Positions 30,876 to 48,651 of a DNA stretch of 64,000 bases are shown here, piece by piece. The position numbers were made by a program, and so were the translations under genes. Within the stretch, counting starts at the first letter, position 1. Each line of letters opens with the position of its first letter. The stretch covers positions 1,984,001-2,048,000 of the forward strand of contig NZ_CP054690.1 in the NCBI RefSeq assembly GCF_013348805.1, in the 5' to 3' direction. The notes under the pieces were generated by a model. The model saw nothing but the letters and a program-made list of their open reading frames with translations, was not told where the DNA came from and made no database searches. Source of the DNA: Rhodococcus sp. W8901 (GTDB taxonomy: Bacteria > Actinomycetota > Actinomycetes > Mycobacteriales > Mycobacteriaceae).

Positions 30876-33800
30876 ATGATCGACTCAGACTCCAGCGCTG
30901 TGCTGCAGACCATTGCAGAGCTGTCCGAGCGAGCCCTCGGCACGTATGCATTCAATCCGGACCGCATCGAAGAGGACGCGAACGGTGAGCGCCGGATTCA
31001 TCAAGGCGGCTACGGAGACCGGCAGCTGTTCGAGCTCGTGCAGAACGCAGCAGACGAGCTGCGCGCGGAGGAGCATCGTGGCGGCAGGATCCATGTTGTC
31101 CTGACCGAGGAGTATCTGCACTGCGCCAACGAGGGATCGCCGATGACTCCGGAAGGGGCTGACACCATCCTCCGCATGGGTGTGTCGAAGAAGCGCGGCG
31201 GACAGATCGGCCGATTCGGGGTCGGAGTGAAGTCCGTGCTCTCGGTGACCCTGACCCCGCAGTTCTTCAGTAAGACAGGATCGTTCGGATTCGACGCTGA
31301 CTGGTCGGCTGGGGAGATCCTTGCCGCGGTCAACGCGGCGAAGGCGAAGCGAGGGGAGCCCTCCGTCGAGTCCGTTGGCGAGACACCCGTTCTTCGTTTG
31401 GCTCGTCCGCTCGATGTCGAGTTCGAATGTTCCCGCGATCCGATTCTCGACACGATGATGGGTTGGGCGAGCACGGTGGTTCGCTTGCCGTTGCTGCCCG
31501 GTGCGGCGGCGCTGCTCGGTGGCGACATCCAGCAGAGCTCGAAGACCCGTGGTGATGCTGCGAAGCAGGACGAGTTCCCTCACTTGTTCCAGCTCTTCTC
31601 ACCGCACGTCGGAAGCGTGGTGTTGGAGGACCGCCGCGAGATGCCGATCGTTCGCCGCGAGATCCAGGTGGGACAGAACGGTGACATCCGCACGATTCAC
31701 CAGTCCCGAACCGGGGCCAAGGCCACCTCCGAGGGTTACCGGGTGTTCACGATCCCTCACCGGGTCAGCGACGAAGCCCGCAGTGGCGCAGGCGAGCTGC
31801 ACGATCGCGTGACCATCGATATTTCGTGGGCGGTACCGAGCTACACGGTGGCGGAAGACTCCGGCCACCTGACCATCCCAATCGATCGCGGTACCTTCTG
31901 GTCGTTCTTCCCGACCAAGTATCCGACGACGCTGAGTGGCGCACTGAATGCGGCGTGGAAGACCAACGAGGACCGTCAGAACCTGCTGGATAGCAGCAGA
32001 CTCAACTGGGAACTGCTCGATGTGGCCGCGAGGCTTGTGATCGGTTCGCTCGACGACCTGGCGGTCTCCGAGGATCCTGCCGCGTACCTGCCGCTGCTAC
32101 CCGGACGACCCCGGGAGTCTCCGAACTGGGCGTGTAAGTACCTCACCGAACAGGTCTGGTCGCTGGCTGCCAAGAGCCCCTCGCTGCCTGACCAGAAGGG
32201 TGTGCTGCGCCTGCCGACCGAGCTACGCATCCACCGAGAAAAATTGTCGTCAGAGGCTCTCGCGCTGTGGCGCGAGTACCCGGGGCGACCGGACAACTGG
32301 GTGCATCACTCGGTCGAAGGCTCAGGCGTCCGCCGCGGAAAGATGAACCACATCCTGGCGGCGGCTTCCTGTAAAGAGTCTGAGTCGGTGCGCGACTGGC
32401 TCGAAGCGCTTGTCGAGGACGGCTCGACGGAAGCATCCGCGGCGGCGATTCGCGTGCTTGATCACCTACTAGTGCATGATCTTGCGGGCTCCAGCAATGC
32501 CGCAGAGGCTGCTGACGCACGCAATGCGCGGATCGTCCGGACGGAGTCCGGTGCACTGGTCGCACCGGTTGCGGGGACAGTCTTTCGCCGCTCCGGCGAC
32601 GACGGTCTCCGCGACGACCTCGTTTACGTCGACGAGCGTATCTCTGGTGACCTCGAGATGGTGCCGCTGCTGGACCGGTTGGGTATCCGCGAGTCCGACA
32701 CCGAAGGTCGCTTTCACAGCGTCCTGGACCAAGGGTTCGAAGGCTACACCGATGAGTCCTGGGCACGGTTTTGGGAACTACTCAAGAGCGCAGGAGGTCC
32801 GGTCCAGGCAGGTGCCATCCGAGCGCGCGTCGGTGACCTGGCAACGACGTTGCACGTCAAGACGATTACGGGACGCTTCGTACCACTGAAGGCGTGCATG
32901 CTGCCAGGCCCGGTGGTGCCGGCCGACGGTTCCCGCGACGGTCACGTCACCGTCGACTTGAACTTCCACGCCGACGATCGGTCGATCCTCCGCAGCTTTG
33001 GAGTATCCGACCGGCCAGATGCGTCGTACAAGCCTGACCAGGATGGATGGTTTGAAGTCTACCGAAAGGATATGTACGACCAATACTGCTCCACGTTGAG
33101 CGCTACCCGCAGTCGCATCATGATCACGACGATGAAGCTGGACGGTGGCGTGATGGCCGGGCCTCTCCACTTGTTCAAACAGCTGTCGGAGGAAGGTCGC
33201 GCAGCATTTCTCGCAGCGATTCCGGACGAGGGTTTGATAGAGAACTGGACACGGCAGATCGGTCATTCCGCGAACACACGCGCACAGATCATCTCGCCGA
33301 TCCGATGGCTTCTCGGGACCTATGGATCTGTGATGACGTCGAAGGGTCTTCGGCCTATCGGGGAGGCGGTAGGCCCTCAGCTCAGCGAGTATGCCGCGGT
33401 TCTACCCGTGGCGGAGATCAGCCCGTCGAAGGCGCAGAAGCTGCGCCTTCCGACCAGTGTCGAAGAAGTGACTCCGGTGCGCTGGAAGGACTTGATCGAG
33501 GCAGTCAAGGTGAGCACCGACGATGCGTTTGTCGGACGGACCTATGCATTGCTCATTCGAGTTGCGTACGACCTCGTGTTCGAAGAGGAAGCAGTCCGTT
33601 GTCGAGTCGGTGATAGATGGGAACTCCGCGAGGATGGTGAGATCGCCGTCGCGAAGACCCGTGCCGAGTACGAGGAGCTGATCCGAGAGAACCACCCTGC
33701 GCTTCTTGTCGACCGGCCGGCGGATGCCGAGCAGGCTGAGGTGATGATCGGGCAGTGGGGGATGCTCACGATCGAGGACGTCATCGAGAAGCGAGTCCGG

Positions 33801-35702
33801 TCAGTACCGGCTGGACCGCCTGCGGCGTTGTCCGACGAGTATCCGTCCCTTCGGCGACGGATCTCGATGGGGCAGCTCAGCGGTTTGCTGATACAGCGAT
33901 GCAGTGAGTTGGAAGAGGTGATCCGGACGCCAAATGGCACCCGACTGACCGCGCTTGCAAGCGCCCGTGAGGACAACACGGTGCTGATTCCCGCGGAGGT
34001 CAGCGGAGAGCAGGCTCTGATTCTCGCGGATCGGGAGTTCGGATTCGGTCTCGGAGCCGCACAATGCCGGATGGTTATCGAGGCGCATCGCAAGGATCTT
34101 GAAGATCGGGCATTCAACGAACGGATCATCGCGATCCAGCTCGCGTTGACGATTCCCGAGAAGCTTGCGCTCATGCTTAGCGAAGACGAACTCCGTCAGG
34201 GCCTCCCAAGCGGACTTGTGGAAAACGAGATTCGAGAGTCAGGACGGAAGCTCGATACGCGGAGGTTGGGAGAACTGGCATACAACGCCCATGACGACGG
34301 GGTGTTGCGGGTGTACGCGAAAGAGATTCGGGCAGGGTTCCCCGATGCGCCGGCTCGCTTCGACGGCGCTTCGGCCGCCTTGAGGTTCGTCACCAGTCTC
34401 AAGTTTCCGGATTCGTTTGCCGGAACACGAATCTCGCCGCCACCCGAGCGAGAGGAGGTCTCTGGTCCGACGGACTTCCCGTCGCTACACCCGTATCAGG
34501 AGCAGATCGCCGGACGGTTCGTCGACCTCCTGTGCAGCGAGCTTCCCCAGCGCGCCATGCTGAGCCTCCCGACGGGCGCCGGAAAGACGCGCGTCGCGGC
34601 CGAGGGCGTGATCCGGTGGATCCGTGAGTCGGGCGTGCCAGCAGGCCCAATCCTCTGGATCGCACAGACAACTGAACTGTGCGAGCAGGCGGTGCAGTCG
34701 TGGAAGTTCGTGTGGGAGAAGGTCGGAGCAGAGTGTCCGCTAGTCATCGACCGGCTGTGGACAGGCAATTCAGCGACGCCGGTGGATGGAAGGCCCCATC
34801 TGGTCGTTGCGACGGACGCTCAACTTAGGGCCTCCTTGAATGCGGAGGAGTACCTGTGGTTGCGGCATGCGGCCCTGGTGATCGTTGACGAGGCACACGA
34901 AGCCATCACCCCCCAGTACACGAAGATTCTCGAGTTGATGGGTCTAACACACCACCGGACGTCCCGGCACCTCGTTGGGTTGACAGCGACGCCTTTCCGG
35001 AACAGCGTGGACAAGACTCGCCGTCTGGCACAACGATTCGGTGACCGGAGGCTGGACGACGGTGTGCTTGGTGACAAGCCGATCGCAATGCTCCAGGAAC
35101 TGGGGATTCTTTCCAAGGTTGAGCATCGAGAGCTCACTGGTATGAACATGACGTTGCAGGACCACGAACTGGCTGAGATGTCGAAGTTGGATAAGGTAAG
35201 CGGATTTCAATTCCTGCCGAAGAGTGCGGAGCGTCGACTTGCAGAAGACGTAGCGCGCAACAAGCTCCTCATCGGGGAGATCGCAGACATGCCGTCAGAC
35301 TGGCCTGTGCTGGTATTCGCAACCTCGGTCGAACATGCAAAGCTGCTCGCTGCTCAGCTGAGCGACCGAGGTATCCGGTCAGTCGCTATCGACTCGGCGA
35401 CCTCCGCGGCAGATCGTCGCCAGCGAATCGACGCGTTCCGTAGGCGCGAAATCCGAGTAATCACCAACTATGGCGTCTTGTCGCAGGGGTTCGATGCGCC
35501 AGCAACCCGGGCCGTCTTGATCGCTCGTCCTGTCTACAGTGCGAACGCGTACCAGCAGATGGTCGGGCGTGGGCTGCGTGGTGTTAAAAACGGCGGCAAG
35601 GACAGTTGCCTGATCCTCGATGTTCGCGACAACATCACCAACTTCGACAACAGTCTCGCGTTCACCGAGTTCGAGTACCTGTGGCAGGAAGACAAGCGAT
35701 GA
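30876..35702 (+). CDS. Sacsin-like GHKL ATPase fused to SF2 DEAH-type helicase
   Basis: This 1608-residue protein opens the large operon. An N-terminal sacsin/HSP90-like ATPase is marked by FELVQNAADELR near residue 50 and GRFGVGVKSVLS near residue 111. A long middle region (about 200-1200) is unrecognised. The C-terminal 400 residues form an SF2 helicase: Walker A LPTGAGKTRV near residue 1228, VDEAHEA near 1337, LTATPFRNS near 1368, TNYGVLSQGFDAP near 1529 and QMVGRGLRG near 1560. It probably couples ATP-driven remodelling with DNA translocation during defence. The stop overlaps the next start (ATGA). The architecture is unlike DrmA or DrmD of described DISARM. Confidence 0.85.
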   Translation: MIDSDSSAVLQTIAELSERALGTYAFNPDRIEEDANGERRIHQGGYGDRQLFELVQNAADELRAEEHRGGRIHVVLTEEYLHCANEGSPMTPEGADTILRMGVSKKRGGQIGRFGVGVKSVLSVTLTPQFFSKTGSFGFDADWSAGEILAAVNAAKAKRGEPSVESVGETPVLRLARPLDVEFECSRDPILDTMMGWASTVVRLPLLPGAAALLGGDIQQSSKTRGDAAKQDEFPHLFQLFSPHVGSVVLEDRREMPIVRREIQVGQNGDIRTIHQSRTGAKATSEGYRVFTIPHRVSDEARSGAGELHDRVTIDISWAVPSYTVAEDSGHLTIPIDRGTFWSFFPTKYPTTLSGALNAAWKTNEDRQNLLDSSRLNWELLDVAARLVIGSLDDLAVSEDPAAYLPLLPGRPRESPNWACKYLTEQVWSLAAKSPSLPDQKGVLRLPTELRIHREKLSSEALALWREYPGRPDNWVHHSVEGSGVRRGKMNHILAAASCKESESVRDWLEALVEDGSTEASAAAIRVLDHLLVHDLAGSSNAAEAADARNARIVRTESGALVAPVAGTVFRRSGDDGLRDDLVYVDERISGDLEMVPLLDRLGIRESDTEGRFHSVLDQGFEGYTDESWARFWELLKSAGGPVQAGAIRARVGDLATTLHVKTITGRFVPLKACMLPGPVVPADGSRDGHVTVDLNFHADDRSILRSFGVSDRPDASYKPDQDGWFEVYRKDMYDQYCSTLSATRSRIMITTMKLDGGVMAGPLHLFKQLSEEGRAAFLAAIPDEGLIENWTRQIGHSANTRAQIISPIRWLLGTYGSVMTSKGLRPIGEAVGPQLSEYAAVLPVAEISPSKAQKLRLPTSVEEVTPVRWKDLIEAVKVSTDDAFVGRTYALLIRVAYDLVFEEEAVRCRVGDRWELREDGEIAVAKTRAEYEELIRENHPALLVDRPADAEQAEVMIGQWGMLTIEDVIEKRVRSVPAGPPAALSDEYPSLRRRISMGQLSGLLIQRCSELEEVIRTPNGTRLTALASAREDNTVLIPAEVSGEQALILADREFGFGLGAAQCRMVIEAHRKDLEDRAFNERIIAIQLALTIPEKLALMLSEDELRQGLPSGLVENEIRESGRKLDTRRLGELAYNAHDDGVLRVYAKEIRAGFPDAPARFDGASAALRFVTSLKFPDSFAGTRISPPPEREEVSGPTDFPSLHPYQEQIAGRFVDLLCSELPQRAMLSLPTGAGKTRVAAEGVIRWIRESGVPAGPILWIAQTTELCEQAVQSWKFVWEKVGAECPLVIDRLWTGNSATPVDGRPHLVVATDAQLRASLNAEEYLWLRHAALVIVDEAHEAITPQYTKILELMGLTHHRTSRHLVGLTATPFRNSVDKTRRLAQRFGDRRLDDGVLGDKPIAMLQELGILSKVEHRELTGMNMTLQDHELAEMSKLDKVSGFQFLPKSAERRLAEDVARNKLLIGEIADMPSDWPVLVFATSVEHAKLLAAQLSDRGIRSVAIDSATSAADRRQRIDAFRRREIRVITNYGVLSQGFDAPATRAVLIARPVYSANAYQQMVGRGLRGVKNGGKDSCLILDVRDNITNFDNSLAFTEFEYLWQEDKR

Positions 35703-37615
35703 ATACCGTCACGGTGGGAGACCTCACCCTCACCCCAAGGCAGCTCAAGGTAGTCGAGCAGCCCTGGGATGGGCGGACCCTCGTGACCGCCGGGGCGGGC
35801 GCCGGAAAGACCACCACCCTGACCTATCGGCTCGAACACCTGACGAGGGTCGAAGAGCTGGAGGCCGCGGAGATCCTGGTGCTCAGCTTCTCGCGGGCGG
35901 CGGTTCGGGAACTGCGTGATCGAGTCGACCGCCTGGCCGTCACTGCGCGTCGGGTACGCGCGCAGACGTTCGACGGATGGGCCCTGGCCCTCCTCCGTCA
36001 GATGGACCCGCACCGGGACGACCTCGCCGGGATCAGCTTCGACGACCGGATCCAGATGGCGATCGCGGCGATCGACGCGGGTGTGGTCGAGTCGTTCGAG
36101 CACGGACCTCCGGCACACGTCGTGATCGACGAGGTGCAAGACCTCGTCGGGGTTCGCCGCGAGATGGTCGAGGCCCTGCTGGACTGCTTCTCCGACAGCT
36201 GCGGCTTCACAGTGGTCGGAGATGCGGCACAGTCGATCTACGGGTTTCAGGTATCGGACATGGAGGAGCGGGCCGGGGAGACGAACCGGTTCTTCGACTG
36301 GGTTCGCGCCTCCTACGCTGGCGACCTTGTCGAGGTCACCCTGGATGACAACTTCCGAGCCCGGACACCCGAGGCACAGGTGGCCTTGCCATTCGGTGTA
36401 CGGCTGCAGAGCCTGCCGACGGATCCGGCCGCGGCGAACGCCGGGGCGTCGAGAATCCACGCCGAACTCTGTTCGGTACTGGATACAGCACCGGATTTCG
36501 GCGACTTGAGCGAGCAGTTCGTCCAGGATTCGTTGCGGTTCCACGGAGGTACGACCGCGATACTGTGTCGGGACAACGGTCAGGTTCTGTGGCTGTCGGA
36601 AAAGCTGAACAGTTACGGTGTGCCGCACCGTATCCAACGGTCGCCACGGTCCCGTCCCGTGCCGGTCTGGGTGGCGGACCTGCTGCAGGCGTCCGGCGGC
36701 GCCACAATGACCGAGGAACGATTCGTCGAGATCGTGTCACAATTGCCAGATGTGACCGACGACCTGAGCCGGGTGTGGCGGGCGCTCAGGAGAGTCGCAC
36801 AGAGCCCTCGTAACCAACTCGACGTCGAAGCGCTCCGGCGGGCCATTGCGGAGGGACGGTTGCCGGATGAGCTGACCGCCAATCCTATTCACCCCCTAGT
36901 GCTGTCGACAGTGCACCGGGCGAAGGGTCTCGAGTTCGATCGAGTTCTGGTCGTCGAGCCTGAACCCATCGCGACCGAGGGAACACGGGAGACGGACCCG
37001 CCCGCGGAAGCACGACTGCTGTACGTTGCGATGACCCGGCCGCGAGATGACCTGTACCGGATGAAGATCCCGAAGCTATGGACCATGCGCAAGGCCGCCC
37101 ACAACGCGTACCCCGTTGATCGCTGGTTCCTGGGTGGTCGGCAACGGTGGGCTCGGAACGGTATCGAGGCGACCGAGTTTGACGTGTGCGGCGAGGCTCC
37201 CGCGGGTGTACGTGAACCGGTCGCTGATCCTGTGGAGACTCAGCGGTACCTCCGTGAATGTGTTCGTTTGAACGACGAGGTGGAACTACGGCGCTTGCAC
37301 GACCTGCCGGCGTCCCCCACCGAGACGCCTCCCTATGGACTGTTCCATGACGGCAGGCCGATCGGTGAGGCGTCCGGACGGTTCCGGGGTGACCTGTGGC
37401 GGCTACTCAAGATCAACCGTGGTTTCGAGGTCCGACGGTGGCCGGAGCGGATCACAGGTCTGCGCATCGATGTGTTGGAGACGGTTGCCGGCTCGGCAGC
37501 GGCCTCCGAACGTAGTGGACTTGGCGACCGAGGAGTCTGGATCGCACCGAGATTGTGTGGGCTCGGGAAATTCGTATGGAGTGACACGACTGAGGAAGGC
37601 GGTGCCGGCGAGTGA
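35699..37615 (+). CDS. UvrD/Rep-type SF1 helicase
   Basis: From the ATG that overlaps the upstream stop, the protein has 638 residues. SF1A motifs are clear: Walker A TAGAGAGKTTTL near residue 32, IDEVQD near 143, VGDAAQSIYGF near 175, VHRAKGLEFDRVLV near 405 and LLYVAMTRPRDDL near 440. A C-terminal extension of about 180 residues has no recognised domain and no RecB-type nuclease motif was found. It should be a 3'-5' DNA helicase. Overlap with both neighbours (ATGA, GTGA) places it in the defence operon. Confidence 0.85.
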   Translation: MNTVTVGDLTLTPRQLKVVEQPWDGRTLVTAGAGAGKTTTLTYRLEHLTRVEELEAAEILVLSFSRAAVRELRDRVDRLAVTARRVRAQTFDGWALALLRQMDPHRDDLAGISFDDRIQMAIAAIDAGVVESFEHGPPAHVVIDEVQDLVGVRREMVEALLDCFSDSCGFTVVGDAAQSIYGFQVSDMEERAGETNRFFDWVRASYAGDLVEVTLDDNFRARTPEAQVALPFGVRLQSLPTDPAAANAGASRIHAELCSVLDTAPDFGDLSEQFVQDSLRFHGGTTAILCRDNGQVLWLSEKLNSYGVPHRIQRSPRSRPVPVWVADLLQASGGATMTEERFVEIVSQLPDVTDDLSRVWRALRRVAQSPRNQLDVEALRRAIAEGRLPDELTANPIHPLVLSTVHRAKGLEFDRVLVVEPEPIATEGTRETDPPAEARLLYVAMTRPRDDLYRMKIPKLWTMRKAAHNAYPVDRWFLGGRQRWARNGIEATEFDVCGEAPAGVREPVADPVETQRYLRECVRLNDEVELRRLHDLPASPTETPPYGLFHDGRPIGEASGRFRGDLWRLLKINRGFEVRRWPERITGLRIDVLETVAGSAAASERSGLGDRGVWIAPRLCGLGKFVWSDTTEEGGAGE

Positions 37616-40600
37616 GCAAGCCCGACCATAGCGCGCACTACGCGCTGAGATCAGAGATCCGCAGTGCGCTGCGATCGGACCTTCTGGGGCCACAGGACGG
37701 GCCTTACGAAGTGCTCGCGAACGACGCGCCCATCACGGCGTACCTGGTGGGCGTGCTCTTCCCGCACGTCGGGGAGGCGCCGCCCACCGTCGACGAAGCA
37801 GAGGACGGCGGTGACGACGGACCGGATGTCGTTCGCGGTGACGATGGTGAGCAGGGTCAGAGCGATCTGGGCGTGGCGCTGACGAACCTGCGTAAGCCCT
37901 CGTCGATGGGACTCACATTCGGAGTGGCGTTGGAGATCGCGAGCACGGTCCACGTCACAGTGCAGGCTGCCCGGTACACGCCCGAGGACGAGGACGGACT
38001 GCCCGTCGAGCCGACTCGAAGCGAAGCAAGAAGCACCGGTCAGCAGAGGGAACGTTGGCGGAGGGTGCCGTTGGAGTGCGACTCAGTTCCGATCGAGCTC
38101 ACGGTTTCGGGGATGCAGGCGCCCGTTGTGCTGTCTCCCGGACTGGAGTTACGCACGCTGGTCCGCACGCCTGACAGCGACGGTATTGTCACGGTCACCG
38201 TCACCATCGTGAACACCTTCCGCACTGGTGAGTTCGACCTCCAGGACGCGTCCTGCTTCTTCCAACCGGAGATCCTCGTCTCGGGGCCAGACGGGACCAG
38301 CCCCTTCGTCGAGCGTGTTGCCGGCGCTAATGCAGTCGACGACGAACAGGCTCTGAGCCGACTACTCCATCGACACGCGCCGTCGTTCGCGGTCGGGCAC
38401 GGATGCTCGGTGGCGTGGGACTGGCAGCCTCCCGCTGTCCGGACACCGTTGTCCGACCGTGCGGCCGTGTCCTGTATTCGCACCGACTTCATGCCCACCC
38501 ACGAGGTCCTGCTGACCGATTCGAACCCCGAGATCGAAGACAGGGCACTCGGAATGTCGGGACTCGGCAGCGGCAACCGTGACGAGGTGGTCGCCGCACT
38601 CACGCAGCTGCTCGACGGCTACGACGCGTGGATCGCCGAGCGCAAGGCGGATGCCGCAGAACTCGTGGGCGGCGACTATGAGACGGTGGCGAGGGAGCAG
38701 ATCCGGCTCTGTCGCGAATCGCTAGCTCGCATGCGCCGCGGCGTGGCGCTGCTCGCCGACACTGATCGACCCGAGATCTTCGAGGCGTTCCAGCTGGCAA
38801 ACGAGGCCATGGCCCGGCAGCGCGGGCGGAGTGCGTGGATCAAGGACGGGCGCACCGGAGATGTCGACACGACGAGCGGACGCTGGCGCCCGTTCCAGAT
38901 CGCGTTCGTGCTGCTGTGCCTCGAGGGAATCGTCGACCCCGAACACGAGGACCGCCAGGTCGCGGACCTGCTGTGGTTCCCCACCGGCGGTGGCAAGACC
39001 GAGGCTTACCTGGGGTTGATCGCGTTCACGGTGTTTCTCCGGCGACTCCGGGGAGGCGAAGAGGGCGCCGGTGTCACGGTGCTGATGCGCTACACGCTCC
39101 GACTGCTGACACTGCAGCAGTTCGAGCGTGCAACGGTGCTGATCTGTGCGATGGAGCGACTCCGTGAGGAACGGAACGATCTGGGTAGTGAACGCATTTC
39201 GATCGGCATGTGGGTAGGCAAGTCTGCGACGCCCAACGCCCTTTCCAACGCCGAGGTCAAGCTCGACGAACTGCGGAACGACCCGAACAAGTTGCTGCAG
39301 CGAGAGAATCCCGTTCAGCTGAAGAGCTGCCCGTGGTGCGGTGACCGGTTGGACGCAACGAACTACGCCGTGCGCATGGACCTGTGTCGCATGCTCGTGC
39401 ACTGCCCGAACACGGACTGCGACTTCCACTCCGGCGACGGTATCCCGGCGCACCTCGTTGATGATGCGGTTTACGACGCCCATCCAACGCTCGTCATCGC
39501 GACCGTCGATAAGTTTGCCTCGATGCCTTGGCGCCCGGCGACCGGAGCGCTGTTCAATCGTGACCTGGCTGGCGTCTCCCCGCCGGAGTTGGTCGTCCAG
39601 GACGAGCTGCACCTCATCTCGGGTCCGCTCGGCACCCTCACCGGCCTGTACGAGACCGCGATCGACGTTCTCGCCAAGCAGCCCAAGGTGATTGCGTCCA
39701 CTGCGACGATCCGCCGTGCGTCCGACCAGGTCGGCGCCCTCTTCGACCGCAAGGTCGCCCAATTCCCTCCGGCGGGCCTCGACTCGCGCGACTCGTGGTT
39801 CGCGGTCGAGACGCCACGGGAGGAGAAGGCATCGCGGCGGTATGTCGGACTGTTCACCCCCAGCGGGAGTCAGGCGACGCTGCTCGTTCGTACCTACGCG
39901 GCGCTGCTCAACGCCGCCCAGGTCGCCAGCACTGAGGCGGATCCTGCAGTGTTGGACGCGTACTGGACGTTGGTCGGCTACTTCAATAGCCTCAGGCTGC
40001 TGTCCGCGGCTGAGTTGCAGGTCCTCGACGACGTGCAGGGTCGACTCGAGTTGCTCGGGAAGTCCAATGTGAGCGGCGTCCGCTCTGCGACCGCGCTGAT
40101 CGAACTCAGCAGTCGCGCCGGCTCCAGCGAGATCCCGAGCCGCCTCAAGCAGCTCGATGTCAAGCTGCCGGACCGGGACGTCCTCGACGTACTCCTGGCG
40201 ACGAACATGATCTCGGTAGGTGTCGACATCGATCGTCTGGGACTGATGGCGGTCATGGGGCAGCCACAAACGACGGCCGAGTACATCCAGGCAACCAGTC
40301 GCGTCGGCCGCCGCCACCCGGGGCTCGTAGCCGTCATGTTCAACTCGGCGCGCTCCCGGGATCGCTCGCATTACGAGAAGTTCCCCAGCTTCCACTCCGC
40401 CCTATACCGAGAAGTCGAGTCGACAAGCGTCACTCCCTTCTCTGCGCGGGCACGCGACCGCGGCCTGCACGCGGTGATCGTGGCATTGACCCGACTGATG
40501 ATTCCCGACGCTTCGGACAACGATGCTGCGGGACGGATCGTCGACTTCGTCGAAAGGATCGAGTCCGAGGTTGTGCCAATCATCCTTGAACGGGTGCGAC

Positions 40601-40854
40601 AGATCGACAAGCGAGAGGTGGAAGCGACTGGGGAACACTGTGCGGAGTTCCTCGAGTGGTGGCTCAATGAGGCGCGCGACCACGAGGATCTCTGCTACGA
40701 GACGAAACGTGGATCCAATAGAAAGGCGTTGATGGCCACGTTCGACGACGAGTCCGACGAGGCGACCGGCTGGGGAACCTTATGGAGTCTGCGCGACGTC
40801 GACGCGGAGTCGACCCTGTTCTTGGAACACAACCGGTCAGGAGCCATGCGATGA
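37612..40854 (+). CDS. drmA: DrmA-like SF2 helicase (DISARM-related)
   Basis: This 1080-residue helicase starts at a GTG overlapping the previous stop. Walker A reads WFPTGGGKTEAYLG near residue 460, the DExH box VVQDELHLISGPLG near 662, motif III STATIRRA near 700, and the C-terminal lobe has LLATNMISVGVDIDRL and QATSRVGRRHPG near 895. A zinc-type insertion (CPWC, then CPNTDC) lies near 572-600. This combination is characteristic of the DISARM helicase DrmA. In DISARM, DrmA and DrmB load onto incoming phage DNA. It overlaps the drmB-like gene by four bases. The alternative is another DUF1998-associated helicase, but the DrmB-like partner supports the call. Confidence 0.8.
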   Translation: MSKPDHSAHYALRSEIRSALRSDLLGPQDGPYEVLANDAPITAYLVGVLFPHVGEAPPTVDEAEDGGDDGPDVVRGDDGEQGQSDLGVALTNLRKPSSMGLTFGVALEIASTVHVTVQAARYTPEDEDGLPVEPTRSEARSTGQQRERWRRVPLECDSVPIELTVSGMQAPVVLSPGLELRTLVRTPDSDGIVTVTVTIVNTFRTGEFDLQDASCFFQPEILVSGPDGTSPFVERVAGANAVDDEQALSRLLHRHAPSFAVGHGCSVAWDWQPPAVRTPLSDRAAVSCIRTDFMPTHEVLLTDSNPEIEDRALGMSGLGSGNRDEVVAALTQLLDGYDAWIAERKADAAELVGGDYETVAREQIRLCRESLARMRRGVALLADTDRPEIFEAFQLANEAMARQRGRSAWIKDGRTGDVDTTSGRWRPFQIAFVLLCLEGIVDPEHEDRQVADLLWFPTGGGKTEAYLGLIAFTVFLRRLRGGEEGAGVTVLMRYTLRLLTLQQFERATVLICAMERLREERNDLGSERISIGMWVGKSATPNALSNAEVKLDELRNDPNKLLQRENPVQLKSCPWCGDRLDATNYAVRMDLCRMLVHCPNTDCDFHSGDGIPAHLVDDAVYDAHPTLVIATVDKFASMPWRPATGALFNRDLAGVSPPELVVQDELHLISGPLGTLTGLYETAIDVLAKQPKVIASTATIRRASDQVGALFDRKVAQFPPAGLDSRDSWFAVETPREEKASRRYVGLFTPSGSQATLLVRTYAALLNAAQVASTEADPAVLDAYWTLVGYFNSLRLLSAAELQVLDDVQGRLELLGKSNVSGVRSATALIELSSRAGSSEIPSRLKQLDVKLPDRDVLDVLLATNMISVGVDIDRLGLMAVMGQPQTTAEYIQATSRVGRRHPGLVAVMFNSARSRDRSHYEKFPSFHSALYREVESTSVTPFSARARDRGLHAVIVALTRLMIPDASDNDAAGRIVDFVERIESEVVPIILERVRQIDKREVEATGEHCAEFLEWWLNEARDHEDLCYETKRGSNRKALMATFDDESDEATGWGTLWSLRDVDAESTLFLEHNRSGAMR

Positions 40855-42701
40855 CACCACCCAACAATCCGCGTCGACGTCGTGGTGCTGGCACGCCCGC
40901 ACAACCGGTCGCGCGCAAGCCCGGTGCGGTGCGGCGATCCCAACTCGTCACCACCTACGGGGTCGGCTCCATGATTGCGATTGACAACGAGTCGTTCATT
41001 GTTGCGGGCCTTGACTCCTGGGACGTGAGCGAGGCCCCGGTGGTGTACGAGCGCAGGCTTGCACAGATCCTGGGGGTCAAGTCGTTTCGGCTTCCCCCGG
41101 CCCCCGACCCGGACCTCGCGACGGGTGGGGTGGTGGTGCACCGCTTCCCCGAATTCTATTCGTGCCCGGAATGCAAGGCACTGCAGCCCTTCTTCAAATT
41201 CAATTCGGAGAAGGGAAAGGCACAGTGCGACGAGTGCTGCGAGGCCCTCGTCCCGTCCCGTTTCGTCATTGCCTGTAACCATGGGCACATCGAGGACTTC
41301 CCATTCTGGAAGTGGGTTCACCGCGGCGCTGACAGGGAAGGTGGGAAGTGCGGCGGGAGCTTGTCGCTTCACACGGACGGCAGCACGGCGTCGCTGCGGT
41401 CGGTGGTCGTGCGGTGTGACTGTGGGGTTCCCGAGGCGTCGATGGAGGGTGCATTCCGCTCGAAAGCGCTTAAGGATCTTGGTATCGGGTGTAGTGGCCG
41501 GCGCCCCTGGCTCAAAGGTGTGGCACCCGAGTCCTGCGACCAGCCGCCCCGCGCCATGCAGCGAGGCTCTTCGTCTGCGTGGCACCCGCTCATGAACAGT
41601 GCCCTGTCGATTCCGCCATGGGGGGAAGGGTTGTACGCGCTCGTCGAACAGCACAAGTTGGGCGGCAAGCCCGAGGGCTACGTCCGCATGTATTTCGAGG
41701 ACCGCGCTGGGCTGTTGGCGAAGCTGAACGCGTCCGTCGAGGACGTAATCAATGTCGTGAAGGCATTCGAGGAATCCGACTCGGCACCGGAGGACGGTGA
41801 AGTACCGGTCGTCAAGGCTGGTTCCAAGCTCCGCCGGGACGAGTACGAGGCGTTGGTCCGGGGACGCCCCGAGGTACACGTCGCCGAGTGGCAGCCGTTC
41901 GTGTGCGAAACCCCGGACGGTGATCTGACACCGATCCTGCAGCTGGGGCTACGGGACAGCATGCTCGTCAAGCGGCTTCGCGAGGTGCGGGTGCTGTCGT
42001 CGTTCGTTCGGGGCGAGGCACCGACTGAGGCCGACGCTGAGCAGCGGCAGGCCCAGATCAGCTCCAAGGATGATCCTGAGTGGTTGCCGGCGATGGAGGT
42101 CAGCGGTGAAGGGGTGTTCCTCCGGCTCGACGCTGACCGGCTCGCGGAGTGGGAGTCCGATAAGTACGTGATCGACCGCAGTGAAGACATTCGGGCGAAT
42201 CACAATGCGCTGCTTCGTGAACGTGGTGCCGCACAAGAGGCCAAGGACGGCAAGACTGTGGAGTCCCACGTGACCCCCCGACTGCTCCTGCTGCACACTC
42301 TCGCCCACGCGCTGATCAACGAATGGAGTCTCGACGCCGGGTATCCCGCATCGGCGCTGCGGGAGCGGCTCTATGCCGACGGTGATATGGCGGGCGTGCT
42401 GATCTACACGGCCACCAGCGACTCCGCCGGTAGCCTCGGGGGAATCGTGGCGCAGGGCGAGCCCGATAAGCTCGCGCGCACCCTGCGGGCCGCGTTGGCG
42501 CGAGCCGAATGGTGCTCCAACGACCCGCTGTGCATGGAGGCGGAGGCCAGCGGTGCAGGCAGCGTGAACAAGGCGGCGTGTCACGCATGCGTGCTGCTTC
42601 CGGAAACGAGCTGCGAACACCTCAATGGCTTCTTGGACCGGGCAATGTTGGTCGGAGATCAGACGGGGAAGGTCCCGGGCTACTTCACGTCAGCGCGGTA
42701 G
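40851..42701 (+). CDS. drmB: DrmB-like DUF1998 protein (DISARM-related)
   Basis: From ATG 40851 the protein has 616 residues. The N-terminus reads VRRSQLVTTYGVGSMIAI, typical for DrmB. A zinc-binding region has CPECK and CDECC near residues 105-130, followed by the signature CNHGHIEDFPFW near 142. The C-terminal DUF1998 domain contains LLLHTLAHALINEWSLDAGY, YTATSDSAGSLGG and the cysteine cluster ending ACHACVLLPETSC. In DISARM, DrmB is the partner of DrmA. It is coupled to the drmA-like gene. No phospholipase-D-like DrmC follows; the next gene is a small BRCT-like protein. Confidence 0.83.
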   Translation: MTPPNNPRRRRGAGTPAQPVARKPGAVRRSQLVTTYGVGSMIAIDNESFIVAGLDSWDVSEAPVVYERRLAQILGVKSFRLPPAPDPDLATGGVVVHRFPEFYSCPECKALQPFFKFNSEKGKAQCDECCEALVPSRFVIACNHGHIEDFPFWKWVHRGADREGGKCGGSLSLHTDGSTASLRSVVVRCDCGVPEASMEGAFRSKALKDLGIGCSGRRPWLKGVAPESCDQPPRAMQRGSSSAWHPLMNSALSIPPWGEGLYALVEQHKLGGKPEGYVRMYFEDRAGLLAKLNASVEDVINVVKAFEESDSAPEDGEVPVVKAGSKLRRDEYEALVRGRPEVHVAEWQPFVCETPDGDLTPILQLGLRDSMLVKRLREVRVLSSFVRGEAPTEADAEQRQAQISSKDDPEWLPAMEVSGEGVFLRLDADRLAEWESDKYVIDRSEDIRANHNALLRERGAAQEAKDGKTVESHVTPRLLLLHTLAHALINEWSLDAGYPASALRERLYADGDMAGVLIYTATSDSAGSLGGIVAQGEPDKLARTLRAALARAEWCSNDPLCMEAEASGAGSVNKAACHACVLLPETSCEHLNGFLDRAMLVGDQTGKVPGYFTSAR

Positions 42702-42727
42702 AGAGGGCGGCCGGTGTATCGCACGGC

Positions 42728-43099
42728 GTGACGAGAGGGGCGAGGAATCAGGGATGGGCTGTCCGGGAGTCAGCAGGATTGCAGGACTGGGGATCACGGC
42801 GACGGGGGTATGCGTCATTGTGCGGTGAGCACATCGCACGCGACCGGCTGCGGCCGCTCCTCGAGAGGAAGGGAGCCTCCTTTCATCCCGACTTCTGCTC
42901 GCGCACAGAAATTCTGGTTGTCGGCTACTACCGCGACGGCCAGCTTCGCGATGACCGTATCGGAGGGGTCGACGCGCTGGCGCAACTGGCCAAACTTCGA
43001 GCCCGACGTGGTCGGCATGTGCACTTGGTGTGGGCGGAGGATCTCGATGCGCTGCTGGCGGGCAGCCGAGTTCCCTGCAGGCAAGTGCCACGTTGGTGA
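42728..43099 (+). CDS. Small BRCT-like domain protein
   Basis: A GTG at 42728, 26 bases after the drmB-like stop, gives about 123 residues. The core reads RDRLRPLLERKGASF, then TEILVVGYYRDG, then VHLVWAEDLDALL, which follows the BRCT pattern (helix with a G-x pair, T-x-x-LVVG strand, late W and hydrophobic end helix). BRCT domains bind phosphoproteins or DNA ends, as in NAD-dependent ligase. The start is uncertain: an ATG at 42754 is out of frame and a shorter product is possible. It sits where drmC would be expected. The call is by eye and needs a profile search. Confidence 0.62.
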   Translation: MTRGARNQGWAVRESAGLQDWGSRRRGYASLCGEHIARDRLRPLLERKGASFHPDFCSRTEILVVGYYRDGQLRDDRIGGVDALAQLAKLRARRGRHVHLVWAEDLDALLAGSRVPCRQVPRW

Positions 43100-43230
43100 C
43101 GCTGATTGAGAGTTTCGAGGATCTCGGAGGCTCGCGTTTGTTCGAGACCGGCGCTCGCATGTCAGCCATCGGCTATAACCAGGAGCTGTCTCAGGTGGGA
43201 GCGGTTGCAGGAGAGGTTGGACATGGATGA
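43096..43230 (+). CDS. Possible 44-residue small protein between BRCT and GTPase genes
   Basis: A GTG overlapping the BRCT stop (GTGA at 43096-43099) opens a frame of 44 codons that ends at 43230, eight bases inside the next gene. The product begins VTLIESFEDLGGSRLFETG and has ordinary protein-like composition. Both overlaps follow the pattern used throughout this operon, which is the main support. It could instead be non-coding spacing. Confidence 0.4.
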   Translation: MTLIESFEDLGGSRLFETGARMSAIGYNQELSQVGAVAGEVGHG

Positions 43231-46200
43231 ATCAGCGGGCTCATTGACGAGTGCTGTCGCGAGTGCGATCGCTAGCGGTGAGCGCGTGCTCGATGATCTG
43301 GACGTTCGGATCGATGCGCTCGTCGACAGCTTCGACCAGGTGCTGGAACCGATCCTCGTGGCAGGGTCTGGCTTGGCAGATGCGGTTGCGCGTATCACTG
43401 GGGGATTCGGTGAAGAGCTGCGGGGACATCTTCATCGGCAACGCGAGACACTGTCGACCTTCAACATCGCATTCTTTGGCAGGACAGGGGCCGGGAAGAG
43501 CACCCTTCTCTCCGCGTTCGGTGAGTTGGACGGGTCGTACGTGTCGCCCGGTGACAGCGACTGGACAACCGACGTCTCCAAGGTCGACTGGCGAGGGTGC
43601 TCGTTGTGGGACACCCCAGGAATCAACGGGTGGGGCCGCACCCAGCCGCGGGCGGAGCTCGAGGCTACCGCCCGCCGCGCTGTCGAGGTGGCAGACGTCG
43701 TCCTGCTCTGCTTCGACACCCAGAGTCAGCAGCCTTCGGAGTTTGCCAAAGTCGCGGCATGGATCCGGGAGTTCGGGAAGCCCGCGGTCGCGGTCCTCAA
43801 CGTCCGCAACCTGCGTTGGCGCCATCCCGCCAAGGTCCCCGCCGACACGGTTCGGGAATCGCTGTCGAAGGCCGTGCGTGATCACGTAGGTAACGTCCGA
43901 ACCGAGCTGGCGATGATTGGACTTGGTGCGACTCCCATCGTCGCGGTGCAGAGCCGACGGGCACTGTTCGCGCGTGCGTCGACACCGTTCCAGGGCCCGG
44001 CTACGTCCAGCTTTGCTACCGACCGTGAGAAGTACGGGATCGATTATCTTCTCCGGTGGTCGAATTTTCCCGTTCTCGAGGACCTCATGGCCGCGTCCAT
44101 CGAGGAAGGGGGAGAAGAGCTTCGGCGAATGGCGCTGTACGAGGGTCTCCGGGGCATGTTCGAGGGCAAGGCAGCAGAACTCGCCACGTTGACAGACGTC
44201 GTGGCGCAGAGGAGTGAATACGTAGAGACCGAAGTTATCAAGCTGCTCGAGACCCTCGGCTACCCGGAAGGCGAATCTCGGGTCCGCTGGTTGGGCCGGA
44301 CCGGTTCCGACGCGCTCACCCAGTTGGAGGAGTCACGAGGCCGGCGGTTCACTGCGAGCGCAGACGGTCGACTCGACCGCCACCTTCGCGACCTGATCAA
44401 GGCGCACCTTGCACATCCGCGGCAAGCCGCGCTCGGCCGCGCCGACGCTCTCGTCGATACCGTCTTCGTCGAGGACAAGCACATCGACGACACGGCATTC
44501 GCCGACGCAGTGTACGTCGAGGCAGAAGTTCGCGATGCGGCCATCGAGGTGTGGAAGTCTGCAGCGGGTTTTCTCGAGCGCGAGCTACGATTGGCCACAG
44601 GTGAAGTCGTGCCGGCTGTGGCGCTATCGAAGGAAGCGACGTCGTTCGGCGGTGGCGCCGGGCGTGTCAAGAAGCAGATTGCGCGGGGAGTACAGGCTGC
44701 GGGGTTGGCTGCCGGAGCGGCTGCTGGTGTGGTGGTGCTCCCGGCCGTTGCCAATGCGTGGAACCCGGCCGGCTGGGTGGGCGGTGTTGCCGCCATCGGT
44801 CTGGGCGCGTTGGCGCAGGTGGGTCAGATGGCGGGCTCCCGTGCCGCATCCAGCGGGGAATCTGACCGAGTTCGCGCGCGGGCGGAGGCGATTCGTGCGG
44901 CGAGAACGGCAACGCATCAGACGTTCGACGAGATCGAGCGGAACCTCTTGGCACAGTGTCGTGAGTTGGCCTGGGAGGCGGGTGCACCGGTTCTCCGAGA
45001 CCGAGTAAAAGACGTCCTCGCGCTGCACAGGCAGCGGTGCGGGTTAGGTGGCCTTGCCGACCGACTCGCGGAAGAATCCCGCAAGCTTCCTCGGGTAACA
45101 GGCGCCGCGGAAGTACTCGTTCGTGCCCAGTCCGAAGTCCTCGCTCGCCGGTCGGATGAGCCAACGCCGGATGTCGATCCCGGCTCGTCGCGTGCACGTC
45201 AGGTGTGGCTCGGCGAGGACTGGATTGGTGAGTCCGCATACCATAGTCACGACCAGGCCCATGGCGAGTCCGACCTGGCACTGGCCGCTGCAGAGGATGC
45301 GGATCGCGGGGAACTGCGCAGCGCCGTTCTCCGGGCATGGAACCCGGACTCGCTGGATTCGGTCACGTCCATGGTCCACCGAATCGGGCAGTTCCTTGAC
45401 AACAACGCGCTGACAATTCAGTGCTCGCACCGCGATGTCTTGGTGGACGACTCGAAGCCGTCGATCGCCATTATGGGTGACTACAGCTCAGGCAAGTCGA
45501 GCCTGGTGAAGAGGCTGCTGATCGAGCTGAATGATGAAGTACCCGAGGACATCCTGATACGTGGGGATGCGGCAACCGGCGCAACAAGGGCTTACGACCT
45601 CGGAAGTGTTCGGGTAATCGACACCCCGGGGTTTCAGAGTTCAAACACCGAGCATGCCAGACGTGCACTCGATGTGGTTGCGGGTGCAGCGCTGGTGGTT
45701 GTCGTCTTGCACGTCAACCTCCTGATCGGGGATGTCTCCCTACTCGACTCGATCGTGAATGGATCGAGTGAGAATGCAGCGAAGGCTGAACGGACGATTT
45801 ACCTCATCAACCGTGCGGATGAACTCGGTGTGGCACCGGATGAGGCGTCGAGCGACTTCCTCCTGTTGAAGACTCGGAAGGAGGAGGAGTTGATAGCGGC
45901 GCTGGCATCCCGTGGCATCTTCGTCGCGCCCGAGCAGGTGCACACGCTGGCCGGAGACCCGTACGGCCACGTCGCGACCGAGACAGACGTCGTACGTAGC
46001 AGTTTCGATCATCACCGTGATTGGGACGGCGTGCGGCCACTGATCCAGATGTTCGAGTCGCTGTCGTCTGGTCAGGTGCGCGCGGGTGTCGCAGCGGGGC
46101 AGCTCGACAGGGCCTGGGGGGAGCTGCTCCAGGCCAAGGCGACTGCCTCAGAGGTGGTGAACGACGCATTAGCGCATGCGGTGGAGCATGCGAACGTGCT

Positions 46201-47047
46201 TCAAGCGATCGGCAACGGTGTGGCCGATTCCTCCACCCTCGACGCAACCATCAGGGCGCGGGTGTGGAGCGCGGTCGAGCCGTACATGGCCCGGGCTCAC
46301 GCCGATTCACACGCAGTAGACGCCGGCAAGATGGGCGACCTCGAGTCGACTGCGAACTCCTGGTGGTTGGACGACACCCTCGCAGCTGACCTCGACAGGG
46401 TCTTGGTCGACTCCCAGCGCGATATCGAGGACTGGTACCGAATCCACGCCTCGACCATCGGTCGTGAACTCGCAGGCCTGGGCTTCTCGCGGTCAGCGTA
46501 CACCCAGGAAGAACGCGTGAAGGTCGCGAACGCGGCGGACGTCAAAGGCATGAAGGTCGTCGGCCATGCGGCCGGCGGCGGCGCGAAGCTGGTGAAGATG
46601 GTTGCGAAGCGCGACGTGGTGTACCAGGTCGGGAAGGCTGTGGGAGTGAAGTTCAAGCCGTGGGGTGCCGTCAACGCTGCGGGCAAGATCGGTAAGGCTG
46701 CACCGGTCCTGGCCGCGGTCAACGTTGCCGCCGACGGATACGCGATGGTCCGTGGAGAGATGGCAGCGAACGACCGCGAGCGTCAACGCGATGCAGCGGC
46801 AGCGTTCATCAAACGCACCTCTGAGGATGTCGTAAACCACGTACTCGAGGGTGAAACCGCGAACGGTCCGGCAGCAGTGTTGCGTGACCTCGTCGCCGAG
46901 CTGTCACAACGCCGCCAGGAGGTCGAGCGCGAAGTGGAGGCGTTCCAAGCCGTCGCGCGGACACACCGCGACCTGATCGCCGACATCGACATCCTCCTCG
47001 CCGACGCCGAGGAACTGCGTAGAGAGAAATGGGGAATCAACACATGA
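43223..47047 (+). CDS. Dynamin-like GTPase with two G domains
   Basis: About 1274 residues from the ATG at 43223, preceded by AGGAGAGG with seven bases spacing. The first G domain has P-loop GRTGAGKST near residue 86 and DTPGING near 128. The second has GDYSSGKSS near 752, DTPGFQS near 800 and LINRADELG near 860. Between them lies a hydrophobic Ala/Gly-rich stretch (about 490-540, QAAGLAAGAAAGVVVLPAVA) that could insert into a membrane, and coiled-coil-like helices flank it. Tandem G domains and a membrane segment resemble bacterial dynamin-like proteins. It is coupled to the next GTPase and shares the transcription unit with the helicase genes. Confidence 0.8.
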   Translation: MDESAGSLTSAVASAIASGERVLDDLDVRIDALVDSFDQVLEPILVAGSGLADAVARITGGFGEELRGHLHRQRETLSTFNIAFFGRTGAGKSTLLSAFGELDGSYVSPGDSDWTTDVSKVDWRGCSLWDTPGINGWGRTQPRAELEATARRAVEVADVVLLCFDTQSQQPSEFAKVAAWIREFGKPAVAVLNVRNLRWRHPAKVPADTVRESLSKAVRDHVGNVRTELAMIGLGATPIVAVQSRRALFARASTPFQGPATSSFATDREKYGIDYLLRWSNFPVLEDLMAASIEEGGEELRRMALYEGLRGMFEGKAAELATLTDVVAQRSEYVETEVIKLLETLGYPEGESRVRWLGRTGSDALTQLEESRGRRFTASADGRLDRHLRDLIKAHLAHPRQAALGRADALVDTVFVEDKHIDDTAFADAVYVEAEVRDAAIEVWKSAAGFLERELRLATGEVVPAVALSKEATSFGGGAGRVKKQIARGVQAAGLAAGAAAGVVVLPAVANAWNPAGWVGGVAAIGLGALAQVGQMAGSRAASSGESDRVRARAEAIRAARTATHQTFDEIERNLLAQCRELAWEAGAPVLRDRVKDVLALHRQRCGLGGLADRLAEESRKLPRVTGAAEVLVRAQSEVLARRSDEPTPDVDPGSSRARQVWLGEDWIGESAYHSHDQAHGESDLALAAAEDADRGELRSAVLRAWNPDSLDSVTSMVHRIGQFLDNNALTIQCSHRDVLVDDSKPSIAIMGDYSSGKSSLVKRLLIELNDEVPEDILIRGDAATGATRAYDLGSVRVIDTPGFQSSNTEHARRALDVVAGAALVVVVLHVNLLIGDVSLLDSIVNGSSENAAKAERTIYLINRADELGVAPDEASSDFLLLKTRKEEELIAALASRGIFVAPEQVHTLAGDPYGHVATETDVVRSSFDHHRDWDGVRPLIQMFESLSSGQVRAGVAAGQLDRAWGELLQAKATASEVVNDALAHAVEHANVLQAIGNGVADSSTLDATIRARVWSAVEPYMARAHADSHAVDAGKMGDLESTANSWWLDDTLAADLDRVLVDSQRDIEDWYRIHASTIGRELAGLGFSRSAYTQEERVKVANAADVKGMKVVGHAAGGGAKLVKMVAKRDVVYQVGKAVGVKFKPWGAVNAAGKIGKAAPVLAAVNVAADGYAMVRGEMAANDRERQRDAAAAFIKRTSEDVVNHVLEGETANGPAAVLRDLVAELSQRRQEVEREVEAFQAVARTHRDLIADIDILLADAEELRREKWGINT

Positions 47048-48651
47048 CTTCACTCGCACAACGCGCCGTCGAGTGGATCGAGCACCTTCCCCGCGGAGTG
47101 TCCTTCGACGAGTACACCAAAGTATGGGCCGAATTCAGCTCGATCCAGGTTCCCGTTGTCACCGTTCTCGGTTCGTATGACACGGGAAAAAGCTCGTTGA
47201 TCCGGCGACTTCTCGTCGATCAAAGTGTTGCGGTACCGGATTGGCTGACCATCAGTGCCCGACACGAAACATTCGACATCAACGAAGTTGAATGGGCGGG
47301 ATGCATGCTGCGCGACACCCCCGGACTGGCAGTAGGAGCCGCCGATGTTCGTGGTGAATCCAACACGGCCCTCGCATTGGACGCCCTCGGTACGACGGAC
47401 GTCGCACTAGTTGTGATCACTCCGCAGCTCGCGACCGGCGAAAGAGACACGCTGCTGGATGTGATCAGTGGCGGGTGGACTTCCGACAATCTGTGCTTCG
47501 CGATCTCCAGGTTCGACGAGGCCGGCGCCGACCCGGACGACGACCTCGGCGAGTATCGGCGGCTCGCGGCTCGGAAGGTGCGCGAGCTTCGTGAATCTCT
47601 CCATCTCGCACCGGAGTTCCCGGTCCACGTAGTGTCCCCAGACTTCGCGCAGTACGCGGGATCGTCCCGTGATGTCGTACCCGAGATCTGGGATGAGACA
47701 CGTGAGTGGGATGGTATGGACGCACTCGCGCGGTCCCTGGCCCAGATCGCGGCCGGAGACCTTGCGGCTCTCCGGGCCGCCACCGAGGACCGCTACTGGC
47801 GGCGAGCCGTGCGTGCATTGCTCGAGACGCTGAAGACTGACATCGACGAAACGGAGCCGCTGATCGCGGTTGCCGATGCGGCGTCATTGCGGCACAAACA
47901 GTCCCTGGACAACCTCGATAGCATCGACCGTGCTGCCCGCGCGGAGTTGAAAGGAACTGTCACTGGGGCGATCAGGCAATCGCTGGCGCTCGGATCGCGT
48001 GACGTGAATCAGGTACGCGCGCGCCTACTCGATGCCATCAGCAACTGGTTCGAGAAGCACCAAACGAAGTGTGAGCGGTTGCTGCAGGACGGTGCGAAGG
48101 ACGCCGATCGCCGATCGGCCCAGCCCTCATGGGATCGACTCGAGGAGATTGCCGCGATGGTTCGGCCAGGCATTGAGCGTCGTATTGACGCTGGCCCAAC
48201 GCCCCTCGCGCCGCATGTGTCAAAGGTTGGGGAGATCTTGCTCGGCGCATTGCGCGCACTCGAAAAGCTTCCCTCCACTGCCAAGGCGGCTGCTGCGAAG
48301 GCAGGCCCCAAGGTTGCCCAGACGGACGACTCCAAGCTGGCGATCGCCGTCAATCTCGGACCGGTAGTGGTGAACCTGGCCGTGCAAGTCGTTGGACTCG
48401 TCGACGAGTTCCGTGTTGACAAGGCGGTCAAACTCGCAGAGCAGGTTGCGGCCGACGAACTCGCAGAACGTCTTAGCGCAGAGGCATGTGCCCTCGCGCT
48501 CGAAGGATGGGACGGGGTCGTTATGGACACCCGTGTGAAGATCGCTGAGTTGGACGGAGCGGAAGAGGCCGATCTGGCAGAGGGACTTCACTCCGCGCTC
48601 GCTCAGCTGAGGTCTGCAGTCGAGTCGGGGCGCAGCCTGCTCTCCTCGTAG
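47044..48651 (+). CDS. Dynamin-like GTPase, second partner
   Basis: The ATG at 47044 overlaps the previous stop (ATGA) and gives 535 residues; ATG 47029 is an alternative. The P-loop GSYDTGKSS lies near residue 44, LRDTPGLAVGA near 91 and AISRFDEAG near 155. The C-terminal part is helical with a moderately hydrophobic segment (AIAVNLGPVVVNLAVQVVGL, about 438-457). It is related in layout to the second G domain of the preceding protein. The pair may assemble as a hetero-oligomer, as other bacterial dynamin pairs do. It is the last gene of the rightward operon. Confidence 0.78.
   Translation: MTSLAQRAVEWIEHLPRGVSFDEYTKVWAEFSSIQVPVVTVLGSYDTGKSSLIRRLLVDQSVAVPDWLTISARHETFDINEVEWAGCMLRDTPGLAVGAADVRGESNTALALDALGTTDVALVVITPQLATGERDTLLDVISGGWTSDNLCFAISRFDEAGADPDDDLGEYRRLAARKVRELRESLHLAPEFPVHVVSPDFAQYAGSSRDVVPEIWDETREWDGMDALARSLAQIAAGDLAALRAATEDRYWRRAVRALLETLKTDIDETEPLIAVADAASLRHKQSLDNLDSIDRAARAELKGTVTGAIRQSLALGSRDVNQVRARLLDAISNWFEKHQTKCERLLQDGAKDADRRSAQPSWDRLEEIAAMVRPGIERRIDAGPTPLAPHVSKVGEILLGALRALEKLPSTAKAAAAKAGPKVAQTDDSKLAIAVNLGPVVVNLAVQVVGLVDEFRVDKAVKLAEQVAADELAERLSAEACALALEGWDGVVMDTRVKIAELDGAEEADLAEGLHSALAQLRSAVESGRSLLSS

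Follow-up and report, generated by a model that had tools for sequence, protein, structure and literature searches.

The question raised by this locus is how many systems are contained in one run of overlapping genes. In the window, the whole stretch of 64,000 nucleotides that was analysed (Rhodococcus sp. W8901, contig NZ_CP054690.1, positions 1,984,001 to 2,048,000), genes for the DISARM proteins DrmA and DrmB are followed on the same strand by genes for dynamin-like GTPases, and an initial annotation had read positions 30876-48651 as a single coupled operon. Comparison with relatives probably divides the run: 24361-42701 would be a nine-gene DISARM-like restriction system, and the GTPase genes at 43223-48651, which fill a variable slot behind it, would belong to an Eleos-like system of their own. 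The nine genes look like a DISARM variant with two C5 methyltransferases, two sacsin/Hsp90-type ATPases and three helicases. All features are listed with their labels in Table 1.

Eight forward-strand frames and seven junctions were confirmed between 30876 and 48651. The junctions are, in order, ATGA, GTGA, ATGA, a 26-base gap, GTGA, an 8-base overlap and ATGA. Six of the eight claimed genes are well supported by family models, which agree with the identities first proposed for them (a GHKL/sacsin ATPase fused to a superfamily 2 (SF2) helicase, a superfamily 1 (SF1) helicase, DrmA, DrmB and dynamin-like GTPases); the frames at 42728-43099 and 43096-43230 are unsupported. Solved-structure matches were obtained for A (helicase part), DrmA, DrmB and F. 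The conserved cluster begins upstream of this range, at 24361. The guanine-plus-cytosine (GC) fraction is 0.62-0.66 over 24-54 kb versus 0.69-0.74 over the first 16 kb of the window; as the right flank (56-64 kb) has 0.62-0.68, the contrast is clear only on the left side.

For comparative analysis, DrmA served as query against 301 genomes from the family to which the window belongs, and 34 of these had a match over at least 75% of the query. The family set comprised 33 loci (the window and 32 others) picked by DrmA, five close DrmA proteins, used to scan named genomes, yielded 16 loci, and a search of 394 genomes of the taxonomic class with gene A as query gave 18 positive genomes. Duplicates, one fragment and one contig end were removed before comparison, leaving 60 loci (33 family, 13 named and 14 class). 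Left out of the class set were L122, with a 444-residue A fragment and DrmA and DrmB pieces on the opposite strand, and L123, with gene A at a contig end. L074-L076 come from the same genomes as L023, L024 and L022 and were not compared; family genomes G283 and G022, with DrmA matches lacking the N-terminal part, were left out, as were shorter or weaker DrmA matches. The class loci cover only about 2 kb beyond DrmB. Near-full-length A was found in 46 loci (20/33 family, 12/13 named and 14/14 class).

Scores above the curated cut-offs make DrmA and DrmB genuine members of their families, and each also has a match in the solved Serratia DrmAB structure. The sacsin domain of A reached 64.5 bits with NF047352 (cut-off 50) and its helicase part matched Pfam ResIII at 5e-18; residues 6-512 matched PADLOC TmtA at 1.8e-37. 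A, the SF1 helicase, DrmA and DrmB lie in this order, contiguous and on one strand, in all 46 loci with near-full-length A, so that their grouping as one unit in the initial annotation holds. Since the family and named loci were picked by DrmA, the fairest test of linkage is given by the 14 class loci picked by A alone, and there the four core genes were together in 14/14. Conserved ATPase residues were retained throughout: N57 (44/44) and K1237 (45/45) of A, K37 of B (50/50) and K462 of DrmA (58/58). The stretch of DrmA aligned to the Serratia trigger loop is present, acidic and shorter. Among plasmids, 176 records matched part of A, none over 80% of the query. DISARM class 1 is marked by drmD and drmMI, and class 2 by drmE and drmMII. 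In L036, L041 and L119 the order A-B-DrmA-DrmB is continued by DrmD, giving a GHKL core mixed with class 1 DISARM genes.

In the window's clade the core is accompanied by a divergent arm (24361-30511 in the window), which was missed by the initial annotation and tracks the core as judged by sequence comparison. Its u2 overlaps u1 by ATGA and u3 by GTGA. Motifs suggest that u1 is a GHKL-type ATPase, Pfam having given no ATPase match, and the residues of its N- and G-boxes are kept in 22/22 sequences (N116 in 22/22); u1 is a candidate sensor-regulator. Among the 16 named loci u1 occurs in 15; u3 adjoins the cluster in 15/16 named genomes, and u5 has a strong homologue there in 14/16, with a fragment in one more. 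Eleven of the 301 family genomes carry u1, nine of them together with DrmA of the same kind (1.24 expected, P 5e-8; 8/10 and P 4e-7 excluding the window genome). The distance between u1 and DrmA is a few kb in six genomes and about 9, 17 and 21 kb in three. DNA similarity to Prescottella subtropica covers 24413-30512 and 30900-42685, with 72-77% identity across the two pieces. The similarity breaks off where DrmB ends and picks up again at 56371 within an FAD-oxidase gene; the stretch between holds F, G, n1, n2 and a type IIG enzyme. L047 and L048 are rearranged, with A, a NERD-helicase, DrmA and DrmB followed downstream by u1-u2-u3 and two C5 methyltransferases.

The u2 profile had no match among PDB sequences, and a structure model (predicted local distance difference test score (pLDDT) 78, predicted template modelling score 0.50) gave generic beta-sandwich matches only, over residues 7-149. 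Profile and model thus lent no support to u2 as the missing nuclease; they barely covered the helical C-terminal part, which may still hold one.

Between the two arms, the 364-base intergenic region of u1 and A contains a perfect palindrome whose conserved part reads TTTGAC-N12-GTCAAA. This part was exact in 13 of 23 loci, with at most one mismatch in 19 and at most two in 21 (0, 0.07 and 0.67 expected from shuffled regions), and in those 21 loci it sits 18-94 bases from the u1 start. A good match was not found in L075 and L109. The palindrome may be bound by u1. Its half-sites contain TTGAC and so may overlap promoter -35 elements.

The GTPase genes behave differently. F and G contain three GTPase modules within two genes; the NCBIfam LeoA/HP0731 subfamily cut-off of 325 was not reached (F 68.8 bits, G no match). 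F was found in 15/301 family genomes, with G directly behind it in every one, and, with a stricter limit, in 7/394 class genomes, four of which are family genomes already counted, the window included. The pair stands beside DrmB in 2 of the 15 family genomes, the window and Rhodococcus coprophilus (L024, L075), where it directly follows DrmB with a 46-base gap in L024. None of the 13 further named loci has it, nor do the 14 class loci within the roughly 2 kb that they cover past DrmB. F and DrmA of the same kind occur together in 3/15 genomes (1.69 expected, P 0.23; 2/14 and P 0.47 excluding the window genome). In trees the two DrmB-linked copies were not sisters; bootstrap replicates joined them in a single clade in 12% of cases with F and 0% with G. 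Two origins are favoured and not forced by the trees, as a single origin of the linked copies still fits when strongly supported branches only are counted. Between R. coprophilus and the window, identity is 62-75% for A-D and 60-77% for n1-n2 versus 46% for F and 40% for G, which points to a history of its own for the GTPase block. Elsewhere the pair lies beside Pgl genes in L063 (by models) and in L065 and L068 (by clustering with L063), and beside McrBC-like genes in L057, L059 and L060 (read from sequence, PADLOC reporting a type II enzyme only). For F, five plasmid records gave partial matches, none spanning 80% of the query. At L066:7959-13490 the fusion is split into three neighbouring genes, LeoBC, LeoA and a second LeoA.

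The small frames between DrmB and F gained no support as genes. A BRCT protein had been proposed at 42728-43099 (123 residues). Pfam gave no BRCT match there, the top BRCT hint being a DNA ligase BRCT (1l7b) at E 0.22, and the lone Pfam match was XPG_I, sub-threshold at E 0.23. No tblastn homologue was present in the 59 other compared loci, a search of the genus gave E 0.012-0.092 in 3/13 other genomes and nothing stronger, and a plasmid search gave no match. The single-sequence model had a pLDDT of 44, and shuffling the 521-base gap between DrmB and F produced a frame as long in 92 of 2000 cases.

Table 1. Features of the locus, with positions in the window, strand, and basis or remark
Label	Feature	Position	Strand	Basis or remark
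u5	C5-cytosine DNA methyltransferase	24361..25374	+	Pfam DNA_methylase 6.9e-39
u4	Second C5-cytosine DNA methyltransferase, tandem with u5	25379..26539	+	Pfam DNA_methylase 2.3e-27
u3	DUF6339 protein, PDC-M33C-like	26545..27441	-	Pfam DUF6339 1.3e-12; PADLOC PDC-M33C 2.6e-8
u2	326-residue protein, predicted beta-sandwich and helical tail	27438..28418	-	Start set by homologues
u1	Helix-turn-helix (HTH) and putative GHKL-type ATPase, PDC-M33A-like	28415..30511	-	Pfam HTH_31/HTH_3 1.1e-9; PADLOC PDC-M33A 5.2e-24
	Conserved part of palindrome, between u1 and A	30575..30598	.	Candidate operator
A	Sacsin/GHKL ATPase domain fused to RadD-like SF2 helicase	30876..35702	+	NF047352, PADLOC TmtA, ResIII
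B	UvrD-type SF1 helicase	35699..37615	+	Pfam UvrD-helicase 1.2e-26
C	DrmA	37612..40854	+	NF038325 DISARM DrmA 1026 bits (cut-off 950); PDB 7s9v_A 8.2e-183
D	DrmB	40851..42701	+	NF038324 477 bits (cut-off 240); PDB 7s9v_B 7.6e-79
E	Unsupported frame, initially annotated as BRCT	42728..43099	+	
	44-residue frame, no support as gene	43096..43230	+	Pfam: no match
F	Eleos-like LeoBC-LeoA fusion	43223..47047	+	PADLOC LeoBC 1.5e-144, LeoA 2.7e-73
G	Eleos-like LeoA GTPase	47044..48651	+	PADLOC LeoA 2.7e-87
n1	HEC-05-like protein, weak GmrSD_N match, flanks GTPase pair	48703..50700	-	PADLOC HEC-05 3.5e-22
n2	UvrD helicase with N-terminal extension	51004..53109	-	Near DrmB in other loci too
	MmeI-like type IIG restriction-methyltransferase	53407-56241		Right edge of variable block, adjoins conserved FAD-oxidase gene

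One coupled operon, in which DNA sensing by the helicases triggers membrane-acting dynamin-like GTPases, would agree with the shared strand, the overlapping F-G junction, the pair directly after DrmB in two genomes and the lack of a promoter- or terminator-like site at 42500-43400, where shuffles expect only 0.1 and 0.3. Against it stand the rarity of that linkage, co-occurrence at chance level, linked copies that are not sisters and the Pgl or McrBC-like neighbours of the pair elsewhere, and we regard it as very unlikely. Eleos is described as strongly enriched in Rhodococcus in the part of the source consulted (PMC10482375), so that meeting it next door by coincidence becomes more likely. 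The initial annotation had named linkage in relatives as the check on its own proposal. There the pair adjoins DrmB in 2 of 15 genomes and co-occurs with DrmA no more often than chance predicts, the outcome that was to refute the proposal, so the inclusion of the GTPase genes in the helicase unit is not supported. As effector of a single operon they were rejected on linkage, trees, co-occurrence and the P. subtropica alignment together. The case shows that genes can overlap without forming a single system: the layout of the GTPases is operon-like, yet comparison sets them apart. A different division would place the boundary inside the nine genes, with the core A-DrmB as DISARM and the arm (u1-u3 and the methyltransferases) as a second, independent PDC-M33-like system travelling along. 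In PADLOC, PDC-M33 is a candidate in its own right, L081 and many family loci carry the core without the arm, and arm genes occur without DrmAB in the remaining two u1 genomes, L124 (u1-u2-u3-like genes) and L125 (u1 and u3), each with a C5 methyltransferase, so that the arm can stand alone. This division is made unlikely by the nine of eleven u1 family genomes that hold DrmA of the same kind, by u1 identity tracking that of A-D, by the continued linkage of the arm in L047 and L048, where it sits on the opposite side of the core, and by the palindrome sitting between both arms.

Several observations weigh against a single nine-gene restriction system all the same. Pfam scans recognised no nuclease domain in any of the nine genes. 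The arm-only genomes L124 and L125 count here too, as does L081 (Nocardia lijiangensis), in which A-D are present without u1, u3 and u5. Near-full-length A was not seen in the fetched stretch of 13/33 family loci (one of them at a contig end), and in L025 (genome G041) an insertion that holds a frame of about 345 codons interrupts A (L025:4641-5675). The SF1 position is taken by a NERD-type helicase in 5/46 loci. DrmD is also present in three of the 46 core loci, with DrmMI in two of those, so A and B are no simple replacement of DrmD. The correlation of pairwise identities, which speaks for one unit, reaches 0.75-0.94 among A, B, DrmA, DrmB and u1, but this range has no unlinked-gene control and the values with u3 are lower (0.60-0.71). 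The RadD-like and UvrD-like helicases would also suit a module for DNA maintenance or repair instead of phage defence; the low-GC island beside restriction genes, the patchy presence (A in 18/394 class genomes) and the status of DrmA and DrmB as DISARM equivalogs leave this highly improbable. On balance the nine-gene restriction system with separate GTPases remains the probable reading.

In such a system, u4 and u5 would mark and protect host DNA by C5 methylation. DrmA-DrmB would load on foreign DNA that is single-stranded or 5'-ended, in the manner reported for DISARM of Serratia. The captured DNA may then be clamped and unwound by A and the SF1 helicase, which would block replication or let a host nuclease act. 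With u2 and u3, u1 would bind the palindrome and set the expression of both arms, perhaps on infection. This order of steps and a role in phage defence are what the gene content leads us to infer. A bolder proposal, to which we give a slim chance, is a further DISARM class without its own nuclease, in which one GHKL protein would be a DNA-bound sensor-repressor and the other a helicase-fused, ATP-driven clamp on DrmAB-captured DNA, the Eleos-like GTPases having been recruited twice behind DrmB as a membrane-acting back-up effector.

On the flanks, homologues of n2 closely follow DrmB in L030, L031, L037, L039, L112 and L113. The N-terminus of the L039 homologue appears RelE-like, a feature reported of ArmD in ARMADA. 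Upstream of the cluster, 20155-23395 holds OGG-like glycosylase, Band 7/SPFH and GIY-YIG genes.

Among known systems, DISARM shares with the nine genes adjacent true DrmA and DrmB and DNA methyltransferases. The latter are represented by u4 and u5; among the matches listed, u4 reached 1.3e-20 with DrmMII models versus 6.4e-88 with generic ones. The nine genes differ from DISARM by the sacsin/GHKL-SF2 helicase, the SF1 helicase and the arm of HTH-GHKL, u2 and DUF6339 proteins. Pfam scans of the nine genes found no PLD domain, as expected of the nuclease DrmC, no DrmE_C match at limits of 0.01 or 5 (the model being present in the library) and no PglX-type N6 methyltransferase domain, and tblastn found neither DrmD nor DrmMI in 29612-49611 of the window; the only PLDc_2 protein encoded in the genome is about 1.9 Mb distant from the cluster. 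With DrmA, DrmB and methyltransferases present but DrmC, DrmD/DrmMI and DrmE not found, the cluster was not filed under class 1 or 2. According to the portion consulted of a study on Serratia DrmAB, a trigger loop autoinhibits the complex and 5'-overhang DNA activates it, and DrmC is non-essential and frequently absent (PMC9142583). With its candidate nuclease lacking in many cases, the way in which DISARM destroys captured DNA is not clear.

ARMADA, described with BRIGADE and TALON in PMC12458937, shares a YprA-family helicase with a methyltransferase and further helicases, as far as the main text consulted goes, whereas in the nine-gene cluster DrmA and DrmB are separate, as in DISARM; GHKL, BRCT, dynamin and Eleos are not mentioned in that text. 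The N-terminal 500 residues of A resemble TmtA of Tiamat, but A continues into an SF2 helicase and belongs to a multi-gene cluster, and the best match listed aligns A 6-512 with 6-449 of 1538 model positions, short of full-length TmtA. PDC-M33, one of the PADLOC PDC systems that are termed unpublished candidates in the part consulted of PMC11811056, resembles the arm in u1 (PDC-M33A, with a best stretch spanning only residues 106-250) and u3 (PDC-M33C); here u2 has no PADLOC match and the arm is joined to DrmAB. No paper naming PDC-M33 was found in the literature search. F and G match LeoBC and LeoA of Eleos, F being a LeoBC-LeoA fusion that is followed by a second LeoA. In a literature drawn mostly from outside subscription journals, neither DISARM with GHKL, helicase and UvrD nor DrmA with DrmB and GHKL was found together, and the GHKL helicase-SF1-DrmA-DrmB order fits no DISARM class found described, in line with the initial remark that the composition was not known from any described system. 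The prokaryotic MORC and paraMORC operons (PMC2292703) combine GHKL ATPases with DNA methyltransferases, as here; in the text available, no operon like the nine-gene cluster was found when UvrD, DUF1998 and sacsin were looked for. Set beside these systems, the locus offers a DrmAB core that is co-inherited with GHKL ATPases, an SF1 helicase, C5 methyltransferases and a palindrome, with no nuclease recognised, across Prescottella, Rhodococcus, Amycolatopsis, Lentzea, Streptomyces, Actinacidiphila and Actinomadura. It makes testable whether a DrmAB system can restrict phage when it lacks a dedicated nuclease, and how such a system gets switched on.

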